Source: an uncultured Oscillospiraceae bacterium | Lineage (GTDB): Bacteria; Bacillota; Clostridia; Oscillospirales; Oscillospiraceae | Length of the DNA: 42,806 nt | Direction: 5' to 3' | Assembly (NCBI GenBank): GCA_947623875.1 | Contig: CANQII010000005.1 | Span: 1-42,806, forward strand | Part shown: positions 38,584 through 41,599 of the stretch, in pieces | How positions within the stretch are numbered: position 1 is the stretch's first letter | Layout: the number at the start of each line of letters is the position of its first letter | Notes under the pieces: generated by a model | Seen by the model: the letters and a program-made list of their open reading frames with translations, nothing else | Told to the model about the DNA's origin: nothing | Database searches by the model: none | Translations under genes and position numbers: made by a program

Positions 38584-38616
38584 GTCCCATTTATGGGACA
38601 GCCCATCTGATATAGT
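38584..38616 (+). promoter_or_regulatory. DUF5688 promoter unit A: palindrome plus extended -10
   Basis: GTCCCATTTATGGGAC (38584-38599), 8 nt, TGATATAGT (38608-38616). Confidence 0.65.
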
Positions 38617-38713
38617 GGGTCCATACAGAGGTCCGCCGCCCTGAGACGGGCCATCTCATCTCAATGGACAGGAGGGAAGAGGGCTCCGCCGGATCGGCGG
38701 AACCCGCAAATGA

Positions 38714-39598
38714 ATGGAACTTTTCAGCAAGGGCCAGCTTCGCCTGGAGGAGGAGCGGCAGAAGGTGCTGTCCTGGCCGCGCCAGATGTGGGAGGACGGT
38801 CTTCCTCAGGGGTGGGCGGTGGTCCACCGCTACCTGGACTTCAATGGTACGGAGCAGGTCTGCATCGAGCTGCACATGCCGAATCCGGAGTTGGCGGGGT
38901 TCAAGCAGCCGCCTGAGAGGGTGATTGTGAAGGATGATCTGGCAGACCGCCCGGACCTCATCCAGACCGCAGAGCAGCTCACCCGGGAGAAGGTGTTGGG
39001 GGAGGCAGTGGTGCGGCCGGTGCGCCGGAAGGACAGCGCCGCCATCCTGGAGACCTGCCCCCATGTGGAGGTGCTGGACCTGGCCGGCATCTTCTACGTC
39101 CCCGTGCAGCTGATGGGGAGTCTGGAGGGCATGGGGCGGCTCCGGTGGACGGACCTCAACCGCCTGGGGATCCCCCTGGAGGAACTCACCGCCGCCGCTC
39201 GCAAGAACACACTGCAGCGGGAGGGTGTGGAGGTCTCCGCCCTGGAGAAGATGAAGCGGGAGATTCTCGAGGGCGGGACCTGGCACGGCACACCCCTGGA
39301 GGAGTTCCAGGTGGGCCTCGGCAACTACTACTTCGTGAGCAACCGGGCACACAGCGGCGGCGGTGCCATCCTCTTGGTGCCGGAGATCCTGGAGACCCTG
39401 GAGCAGAAGTTGGGCGGCCCCTATTTCATCGCCTTCAGCATGCGCAACGGGGTGGAAGTGATCCGGGACATCGGCTTGCAGTACCCCTCCGAGGTGCTAG
39501 GGGTGGTGCTTGAGACGCAGCGGTGCTGGCCCTCCGGCTTTGTGGACCACCTGTACCGCTTCGACAGCGTCCACGGCCTGACGATCCCGGAGGACTGA
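38714..39598 (+). CDS. DUF5688 family protein (paralogue 2)
   Basis: CPHVEVLDLAGIFYVPVQLMGS...LGIPLEELTAAARKNTLQ...GAILLVPEILETLEQKLGGPYFIAFS. Confidence 0.75.
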   Translation: MELFSKGQLRLEEERQKVLSWPRQMWEDGLPQGWAVVHRYLDFNGTEQVCIELHMPNPELAGFKQPPERVIVKDDLADRPDLIQTAEQLTREKVLGEAVVRPVRRKDSAAILETCPHVEVLDLAGIFYVPVQLMGSLEGMGRLRWTDLNRLGIPLEELTAAARKNTLQREGVEVSALEKMKREILEGGTWHGTPLEEFQVGLGNYYFVSNRAHSGGGAILLVPEILETLEQKLGGPYFIAFSMRNGVEVIRDIGLQYPSEVLGVVLETQRCWPSGFVDHLYRFDSVHGLTIPED

Positions 39599-39623
39599 GC
39601 CCCACAGCGGGGCTATTGGGGGT

Positions 39624-39649
39624 GCAGGGCCGGCTCGGACCGGCCCTGC
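39624..39649 (+). terminator. Hairpin after DUF5688 paralogue 2
   Basis: GCAGGGCCGG-CTCGGA-CCGGCCCTGC. Confidence 0.5.
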
Positions 39650-39819
39650 GCATCCAAAATCGCAAATGGGGCTGCAGATCGCCTCAGATCTCTGCGATGG
39701 GTAGCGTGCAAGGATGCAAATTGGGATGCAACGCCTGAAAGCACGCTCGCAGCACAGGGCTTTTCGCCAGCTTGTCCGCAGCTGGTCTGCGGTAGAGGAC
39801 CTTATATATAAGGATACAT

Positions 39820-39856
39820 GCCCTGGAAGCGCATCAGCGCTTCCAGGGCGTGTTTT
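39820..39856 (+). terminator. Relic-like terminator duplicated with promoter unit B
   Basis: GCCCTGGAAGCGCATCAGCGCTTCCAGGGCGTGTTTTT; resembles the terminator at 38464 in sequence and relative position. Confidence 0.6.
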
Positions 39857-39936
39857 TGCTTGGCAGTTTGGAGACAGAGAGGTATCCCCAGTCTACTTCG
39901 AAGATTCCATGAAAGTTGGAAATAAAGTTGAGATGA

Positions 39937-39969
39937 GTCCCATTTATGGGACAACCCTTTTGATAAGAT
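39937..39969 (+). promoter_or_regulatory. DUF5688 promoter unit B: palindrome plus extended -10
   Basis: GTCCCATTTATGGGAC (39937-39952), 8 nt, TGATAAGAT (39961-39969). Confidence 0.65.
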
Positions 39970-40066
39970 GGGCTCATACAGAGGCCCGCCGCTCTGAGAC
40001 GGGCTATCTCATCTCAACAGACAGGAGGAAAGAGGGCTTCGCCGGAAAGGCGAATCCCGCAAAGGT

Positions 40067-40440
40067 ATGGAGTTTTTCAGCAACGGACAGATTCTCTTGG
40101 GAGAGGTGCTGTCTCGGGCGTCCCCGGTGTGGGAGCTCAGCGATGCCCTGGACGAGGTCATTGCCTCGGTCCGGAAGAACACGATGGTGAGGGCGGTGAC
40201 GGAGGTGTTCGCCGGGCTGAAGGCGTAGCAGGAGAACCTGGAGAGCGGGCTCTGGGACGCCTGTGGAAGAAACCCAGATGGACCAAAGGTACTGCTACTC
40301 TGTGAGCGGCGGACGCGGGACCATTCTCCTGGTGCTGGAGACTCTGGAGCCTGACGGTCCAGGAGGCATGCGCCTGGAGCATAGCACCTCTTTGGATGAA
40401 TTTGGGAGAGGATCCAGCCGCCCCGCCCCCAAGTCATCCC
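40067..40440 (+). pseudogene. Internally deleted DUF5688 paralogue with residual 53-aa ORF (40067-40228)
   Basis: MEFFSNGQILLGEVLSRASPVWELSDALDEVIASVRKNTMVRAVTEVFAGLKA* shares the family N-terminus. Downstream YCYSVSGGRGTILLVLETLE resembles CYVVSNREHSGGGALILVPEVLEALE. Confidence 0.65.
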
Positions 40441-40467
40441 AAAGAAAATTGCAAAATCCCTGGATGA

Positions 40468-40500
40468 GTCCCATTTATGGGACTTGCCTTATGGTATGCT
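40468..40500 (+). promoter_or_regulatory. DUF5688 promoter unit C: palindrome plus extended -10
   Basis: GTCCCATTTATGGGAC (40468-40483), 8 nt, TGGTATGCT (40492-40500). Confidence 0.65.
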
Positions 40501-40593
40501 TTCATTGCGCCGATCCCGCAGCAGGGAGCGGGCGGTTTGATTCGAACATAGAGGAGGTAAGAGGGCTTCGCCTGCGGGTGGAGCCTGCAAAGT

Positions 40594-41478
40594 ATGGAAG
40601 TGTATAGCACGGGAGAGATCCTGAAAGAGAAGCTGCAGCAGAAGGCGCAGGTGCGCCTGCCACTGCTGCAGAAGGTGCACGGGGAGCACGCCTGGATGGA
40701 GGTCCACCGCTTCCTGGACGATGACGGTGCGGAGTGCGTCTGCGCCAGGCTGCATGTGCCCAATGTGGATGCGGTGCGGGCAATGCGGCTGCCCAAAGGT
40801 GTGGTGGTGAAGGACGAGCTGGCGATCCGCCAGTTTCTCAGCCGGACGCCTGTCCAGCCCACCCGGGAGAAAGTGCTGGAGCAAGTGATGCTGCAGGTGG
40901 TGAGCCAAAAGGGCAACGAAGATCTGCTGGGGGCCTGCCCCCATGTGGATCTGCTGGACCTGGCCGGGGTCTTCTATATTCCGGTGAAGCTGGCTGGCGG
41001 TATGCTGGACGGCTTTGGCCGGCTTCAGTGGACAGACCTCAATGATCTGGAGCTCTCCCCCGAAGAGCTCTACGCTGCGGCCAGGGAGAACACGGTGCGC
41101 CACCAGGGGGTGCGGGTGATCCCCGAGGGGAAGGTCTTCCAGCAGACCTTCCGGAACGGGAAGTGGATCGGCACCACCCTGGGGAAGGCCCAGATGCGGC
41201 GGCAGAACTGCTACGTTGTGAGCAACCGGGAGCACAGCGGCGGCGGGGCGCTCATCCTGGTGCCGGAGGTGCTGGAGGCCCTGGAGGAGAAGATGGGCGG
41301 TCCCTTCTTCATCGCGTTCACCGTGTTGGACGGGCTGATGATGATCCGGGATGACGGGGGAGAGAACCGGCCGGCGTGCACGGGGATGGCGCTCCGGGCG
41401 CTGCAGTACTGGCCCTCCGGTGTCTCGGACCGCCTGTACCGCTTCGAGCGCTCCCGGGGACTGCAGTTTGCCAGCTGA
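40594..41478 (+). CDS. DUF5688 family protein (paralogue 3)
   Basis: CPHVDLLDLAGVFYIPVKLAGG...LELSPEELYAAARENTVRHQGVRVIP...GALILVPEVLEALEEKMGGPFFIAFTV. Confidence 0.75.
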   Translation: MEVYSTGEILKEKLQQKAQVRLPLLQKVHGEHAWMEVHRFLDDDGAECVCARLHVPNVDAVRAMRLPKGVVVKDELAIRQFLSRTPVQPTREKVLEQVMLQVVSQKGNEDLLGACPHVDLLDLAGVFYIPVKLAGGMLDGFGRLQWTDLNDLELSPEELYAAARENTVRHQGVRVIPEGKVFQQTFRNGKWIGTTLGKAQMRRQNCYVVSNREHSGGGALILVPEVLEALEEKMGGPFFIAFTVLDGLMMIRDDGGENRPACTGMALRALQYWPSGVSDRLYRFERSRGLQFAS

Positions 41479-41500
41479 GCAGGAAGCCAACATGGGTTTG

Positions 41501-41537
41501 GCAGTGCGGGACCGGAACAGGTCCGGCCCCGCACTGC
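41501..41537 (+). terminator. Hairpin after DUF5688 paralogue 3
   Basis: GCAGTGCGGG-ACCGGA...TCCGG-CCCCGCACTGC. Confidence 0.5.
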
Positions 41538-41566
41538 CCGGCAAAATCAGGATATGCTCTGGATGA

Positions 41567-41599
41567 GTCCCATTTATGGGACACACCTTATGATATTCT
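41567..41599 (+). promoter_or_regulatory. DUF5688 promoter unit D: palindrome plus extended -10
   Basis: GTCCCATTTATGGGAC (41567-41582), 8 nt, TGATATTCT (41591-41599). Confidence 0.65.

Follow-up and report, generated by a model that had tools for sequence, protein, structure and literature searches.

Introduction

In Caulobacter crescentus, the homodimeric WYL regulator DriD is activated by single-stranded DNA (ssDNA) and acts at pseudo-palindromic sites that lie at one distance from the -10 element, over a -35 of poor quality and next to an extended -10 that includes G-14; its regulon is made of LexA-independent DNA-damage genes, and one of the sites is found at driD itself (PMC12340889). 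The present study concerns a comparable arrangement in a 42,806-nucleotide stretch of DNA from an uncultured Oscillospiraceae bacterium (GenBank assembly GCA_947623875.1, contig CANQII010000005.1; hereafter the window). There, a 16-bp palindrome, GTCCCATTTATGGGAC, precedes several units of the DUF5688 family (PF18941) at a fixed distance from an extended -10. A preliminary description of this locus knew of no system with such an arrangement. The DriD sites are in fact close to it, as are, more loosely, the PafBC sites of mycobacteria.

Nevertheless, these systems also differ from the one studied here. The DriD site is ATACGAC-N7-GTCGTAT, as opposed to GTCC-N8-GGAC, and belongs to another order and phylum. 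The targets of DriD are few and those named do not include recA, whereas recA, cas3 of CRISPR (clustered regularly interspaced short palindromic repeats), BREX (bacteriophage exclusion) and restriction-modification genes are found here. PafBC is a WYL regulator of recA and of damage genes that also uses its own element instead of the -35 (RecA-NDp motif, sigma adaptation; PMC11804915). However, it is a heterodimer acting on an asymmetric -26 element and not on a palindrome. SiwR from Mycobacterium smegmatis is a homodimeric WYL activator with an imperfect palindrome 5' of the -10 (PMC10693628), but it controls one adjacent operon and its site covers the -35 to -10 region. BrxR and CapW are WYL regulators linked to phage defence that act as local repressors, of BREX and of CBASS (cyclic oligonucleotide-based antiphage signalling system), inside the defence operon; here, scattered sites unite recA with defence genes. 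Finally, the LexA-controlled SOS regulon of Clostridia and Bacilli likewise has a palindrome at recA and genes of the DNA-damage type. Its box is GAAC-N4-GTTY, which is found here at lexA, whereas recA bears GTCC-N8-GGAC.

Altogether, we consider it probable that the palindrome marks an autoregulated, DriD-like WYL regulon for DNA damage and defence in Oscillospiraceae and their relatives, into which the lineage of the host recruited DUF5688 genes.

A Palindrome Standing in Place of the -35 Element

The four identical palindromes announced in the preliminary description are found exactly at positions 38584, 39937, 40468 and 41567 of the window (Table 1), and all four are followed by an 8-nt spacer and TGnTAnnnT, with spacers and elements as given there. 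Given a TGnTAnnnT density of 0.0004 per window position, four occurrences out of four at one fixed place would be expected by chance with a probability of about 2e-14. Palindrome matches number 11 (up to three mismatches, both strands) compared with 0.24 expected from shuffling, and in several copies the palindrome is prolonged to 24 bp (ATGAGTCCCATTTATGGGACTCAT). It had also been remarked that the position of the -35 would lie within the palindrome. This agrees with the fact that a search of 38400-42806 gave no promoter with a -35 as well as a -10.

A search of the host genome and of its relatives, named beforehand as the test, shows that most copies of the palindrome keep the fixed distance from the -10. 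The host assembly (G000; 3.5 Mb in 392 contigs, completeness 75%) contains 16 exact palindromes, counting the G-variant at 4498 of the window. Thirteen of these are followed by N8-TGnTAnnnT, one of them before recA. A relative, the Oscillospiraceae metagenome-assembled genome G029 (5.8 Mb, record CANRFN), has 13 such sites with the exact palindrome and 14 by a wider pattern; the other members of the genus have 0-2. The degenerate pattern GTCCnnTTTATnGGAC-N11-TAnnnT occurs in 31 of the 42 genus genomes sampled and, at the level of the order, in 97 of 399 genomes, representing 59 of 168 genera. The reversed pattern, used as a control, has no match in the 42-genome or in the 399-genome sample. 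Upstream of recA, most genus-mates carry GTCCnnTTTATnGGAC, followed by a -10 hexamer in the corresponding position. The promoter is older than the host lineage. Copies of the palindrome without a -10 at the fixed place were also observed, at 4498-4513 of the window, on contigs C46 and C330 of the host and on C42 and C127 of G029. The copy at 4498-4513 is probably not a promoter of this type.

The geometry was also evaluated by searching the palindrome in the genus genomes without imposing a -10. Among the 63 places listed, TAnnnT is found at offset 11 in 46 and at any other offset in at most 4. In a logo built from 112 order-wide sites, the columns that were not imposed show an A after the palindrome (91/112), the T and G of an extended -10 (82 and 74, respectively), TATAAT, a pyrimidine at -1 (101/112) and a purine at +1 (105/112). 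Because these columns display an extended -10, a TATAAT hexamer and a pyrimidine/purine start, the element can be considered a real promoter. Transcription is predicted to start 7 nt after the -10. The palindrome extends from -39 to -24, centred at -31.5, and stands where a -35 would be; TTGACA is matched there at a mean of 0.35-1.6 of 6 positions. These results support the earlier proposal that the palindrome is the site of a regulator, whose binding is predicted, in a -35-less promoter shared by a common regulon.

Genes Placed Behind the Promoter

The recA gene lies behind the site in the host and in G029, accounts for 16 of the 37 exact places in the rest of the genus, and appears three times in the order sample. 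Other targets in the host and G029 are a protein of about 40 amino acids, a neighbouring "NVVDLNAW" protein, two tandem genes of about 137 amino acids, tandem units of about 250 nt and DUF5688. The expectation that the sites precede DUF5688 genes holds in the host lineage, where the sites also have other targets, including recA. The ~40-aa protein (core GH-[VI]-EV...FSAD) is the most frequent target, with 32 of 194 distinct sites; this set includes loci fetched via recA, which inflates its recA count of 20. The truA genes, found beside some of the family matches, may correspond to neighbours rather than to targets.

Phage defence is also represented. In the order sample, Pfam and PADLOC identify Cas3c (twice), Cas3e, BrxA, BrxP-like phosphoadenosine phosphosulfate (PAPS)-reductase proteins (twice) and type I, III and IIG methylases of restriction-modification systems. 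A Cas3-type HD protein, identified by eye and by its HD pattern, lies behind the site in a genus-mate (L225). Many of the target proteins are small and appear to have one or two membrane segments; they recall, by resemblance only, SOS division inhibitors and toxins.

Several less usual units were observed. At L133, L134 and L135 (C70 and C94 of the host, C51 of G029), tandem palindrome-promoter units about 240-255 nt apart have no long frame and end with a Shine-Dalgarno sequence and a frame of 4-5 codons (MRMG, MPMGA); they may be small RNAs or minigenes. Near-identical palindrome units at L136 and L137 (C13 and C16 of G029) may encode a short hydrophobic peptide, KGMRSLCLLLTAVLLVLLV.., which brings to mind the membrane toxins induced by damage. 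A protein of about 270 amino acids with a SWIM-like zinc motif (YYND..GD.VYVDGKLEG) stands five times behind the promoter (L338, L360, L365, L373, L401); the one member tested had no Pfam or NCBIfam match. Finally, L300, L310, L324, L326 and L332 have in common a C-terminal stretch of the DIEKRL...LMFDGEPL type, mostly after an XRE-type helix-turn-helix.

A DriD-Like WYL Protein as Candidate Regulator

The candidate regulator is WYL1, a WYL-domain protein. The site is found directly 5' of its gene in several genera belonging to two families (L045, L086, L087, L317, L367), and in many genus genomes a palindrome variant that keeps the N11 spacing lies about 56 nt ahead of its start codon. WYL1 is present in 39 of the 42 genus genomes, in nearly all cases once per genome. 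Two genomes, G006 and G015, both 94% complete, have neither WYL1 nor any exact site. Among named species, Vermiculatibacterium agrestimuris has a homologue of WYL1.

WYL1 has a winged helix-turn-helix - WYL - WCX architecture, as judged from Pfam matches to WYL and WCX and from a helical N-terminal region in the predicted model. By sequence and by fold, its nearest solved structures are DriD, with which Foldseek gives a full-length match, and then PafBC, both of them activators of the DNA-damage response that sense ssDNA. Within the WYL region, Arg205, Tyr207, Arg208 and Asp210 are invariant. Because the nearest relatives are DriD and PafBC and because the geometry of the DriD sites is alike, we infer that WYL1 is a DriD-like activator of the palindrome promoters. 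The preliminary description had left open whether the palindrome is a repressor operator or an activator site; geometry and kinship favour the second possibility.

It can be proposed that a WYL1 homodimer would bind the palindrome, GTCC-N8-GGAC, over the absent -35. Upon DNA damage or phage attack, ssDNA would fill the groove of the WYL domain, and the ssDNA-loaded protein would anchor the housekeeping RNA polymerase at a weak extended -10 promoter. The set thus switched on would comprise recA, WYL1 itself, the ~40-aa protein and probable membrane inhibitors, as well as genes for restriction-modification, CRISPR Cas3 and BREX. The place of recA among the targets lends indirect support to activation after DNA damage. 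In the host and G029 lineage, the site would have become fixed as GTCCCATTTATGGGAC and would have spread to 13-14 promoters per genome, DUF5688 paralogues being taken in.

Several points weigh against this proposal. The host assembly, which is 75% complete, yielded no WYL1, and in G029 the protein is present without a palindrome upstream of its gene. Both genomes also have WYL2, a WYL1 paralogue (about 33% identical; L234 on C250 of the host, L240 on C129 of G029) found within the genus in these two genomes only, together with a protease-dead LexA (see below), so that the protein binding the palindrome could differ there. Confidence in the WYL1 model is moderate (mean predicted local distance difference test score, pLDDT, 73; predicted template modelling score 0.42), and for over half of the targets no function is known. 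A good extended -10 could also suffice without any activator. Moreover, some WYL proteins, such as BrxR and CapW, are repressors, and the choice between activation and repression is judged here from geometry and kinship.

In the main alternative, WYL1 would be a repressor: seated over the -35, it would obstruct RNA polymerase until released by ssDNA or a different ligand, in the way that CapW and BrxR act on their own operons. The overlap of the site with the -35, the frequent strength of extended -10 elements and the presence of BrxR and CapW among the structural matches of WYL1, although below DriD and PafBC, would fit this mode of action. So would the second, constitutive-looking promoter that WYL1 often has, the start of which would fall inside the palindrome. 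However, a repressor needs neither a single exact spacing to the -10 nor the loss of the -35, and both sequence and fold place WYL1 nearest to activators. Repression by WYL1 therefore appears unlikely, albeit the most serious of the alternatives.

LexA in the Same Genomes

The presence of recA among the targets raises the question of LexA. Canonical LexA (71-82 bits) is found in 38 of the 40 genus genomes with a LexA match. In the upstream regions that were read, the box at canonical lexA is GAACAAATGTTTG or a near form, and recA has GTCC-N8-GGAC. As the two sites differ, canonical LexA was discarded as the palindrome binder.

The host and G029 have only a divergent LexA-like protein (53-55 bits; 34-36% identical to the canonical proteins), in which the alignment shows the catalytic Ser replaced by Ala, Lys by Arg and the AAG cleavage motif by NNL or NDL; the recognition helix is altered as well. 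The palindrome lies about 145 bp 5' of its start in both genomes. Just one further close homologue (P0133) was found in 5.8 billion proteins, and the same catalytic and cleavage residues are gone. In a contrast of LexA profiles based on these two genomes, classical SOS control seems to have been lost in this lineage while the regulon expanded, with 13-14 sites in place of one or two.

This leads to the idea of a new LexA box: in the host and G029, the divergent protein would bind the palindrome, alone or in competition with a WYL protein. The divergent form occurs in just 2 of the 40 LexA-matched genomes, namely the two with 13-14 sites, and its altered recognition helix and upstream palindrome would agree with such a role. 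However, genus-mates with a canonical LexA and its box GAACAAATGTTTG have the same site, in the same geometry, at recA, the palindrome of the LexA-like gene has no N8-TGnTAnnnT, and the loss of Ser, Lys and the cleavage Ala-Gly makes classical SOS induction impossible. A new LexA box is thus improbable, more so than repression by WYL1. As to another regulator co-varying with WYL1 by chance, the predicted status of WYL1 binding and the fact that just two genomes lack both WYL1 and sites leave it some room, but the site at the WYL1 gene in several genera of two families and the DriD-like geometry make it very improbable.

DUF5688 Genes and Other Features of the Window

The preliminary description had proposed a regulon built around four DUF5688 units. 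Three of these are intact genes, with PF18941 scores of 58-115 bits for a curated cut-off of 34.5, whereas translation shows that the unit at 39937 drives only a remnant (Table 1). Another DUF5688 gene of the window has no palindrome, and a further one, on contig C39 of the host, has a degenerate site and a leader like those of the window genes. Outside the host lineage, the site is absent from all readable DUF5688 upstream regions. A regulon centred on DUF5688 was therefore rejected, all the more since, order-wide, the promoter also precedes recA, the WYL regulator, phage-defence genes and the ~40-aa family. Given these site-less upstream regions and the degenerate site on C39, DUF5688 can be viewed as having been recruited into the regulon. 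The terminator hairpins said to separate the genes are partly confirmed: a strong one precedes unit 2, and clear terminators exist in only some of the gaps.

All DUF5688 leaders, including that of the palindrome-less gene, contain a conserved hairpin with covariation, placed after the Shine-Dalgarno sequence and before the start codon. In the alignment, 95.5% of the cells are paired and four pairs are changed on both sides. This hairpin perhaps exerts translational control. The predicted structure of DUF5688 (mean pLDDT 76) has no PDB match with E < 0.001, and nothing relevant to DUF5688 or to the palindrome sequence was found in open-licence papers, an earlier description elsewhere being possible. 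Apart from these subjects, a tandem glycine riboswitch was observed in the window; an Rfam search of the window and of the tandem ~250-nt units matched glycine riboswitches only.

Table 1. Positions of the features discussed, in window coordinates unless a locus is named.
Feature	Position	Strand	Remark
Palindrome GTCCCATTTATGGGAC, spacer agcccatc, extended -10 TGATATAGT	38584..38616	+	Promoter of DUF5688 gene 1
Palindrome, N8, TGATAAGAT	39937..39969	+	Promoter of DUF5688 remnant
Palindrome, N8, TGGTATGCT	40468..40500	+	Promoter of DUF5688 gene 3
Palindrome, N8, TGATATTCT	41567..41599	+	Promoter of DUF5688 gene 4
Fifth palindrome copy, variant GTCCCGTTTATGGGAC	4498..4513	+	G at position 6; no -10 element
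DUF5688 gene 1, intact, 294 aa	38714..39598	+	PF18941, 58 bits
DUF5688 remnant, 53 codons	40067..40228	+	ATG at 40067, stop TAG; translation
DUF5688 gene 3, intact, 294 aa	40594..41478	+	PF18941, 71.6 bits
DUF5688 gene 4, intact, 309 aa	41692..42621	+	PF18941, 115 bits
DUF5688 gene without palindrome	32711-33676		
DUF5688 leaders	38617-38713, 39970-40066, 40501-40593, 41600-41691		
Leader of the palindrome-less DUF5688 gene	32660-32710		
Leader hairpin, DUF5688 gene 4	41660..41691	+	Between AGGAGG and ATG; alignment
Equivalent leader hairpins	~38680-38706, 40032-40060, 40562-40586		
Terminator-like hairpin	39816..39853	+	5' of unit 2
Tandem glycine riboswitch	5995-6153		RF00504
LexA-like protein, G029 (C25)	L129:745-1341		Only LexA match in the genome
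LexA-like protein, host (C9)	L130:768-1364		Only LexA match in the genome

Implications

The regulon would seem to represent a damage response separate from the textbook SOS system and so far undescribed. If this is true, a WYL regulator rather than LexA governs recA in a large group of gut bacteria, and DNA repair and phage defence are joined under one switch. More speculatively, and with rather less than even confidence, it can be imagined that an ssDNA-sensing WYL activator provides gut Clostridia with an order-wide second damage response, jointly inducing recA, CRISPR Cas3, BREX, restriction-modification and new small proteins, and that in one lineage it replaced a LexA no longer able to cleave itself. 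The specificity of the site, the reversed pattern being without a match in 399 genomes, allows the regulon to be listed in any genome of the order. This gives a first functional context, in which the part played by DUF5688 is a putative one, to this family, to the ~40-aa family and to many small membrane proteins, and would offer a clean case of the loss of the LexA protease alongside the expansion of another damage response.
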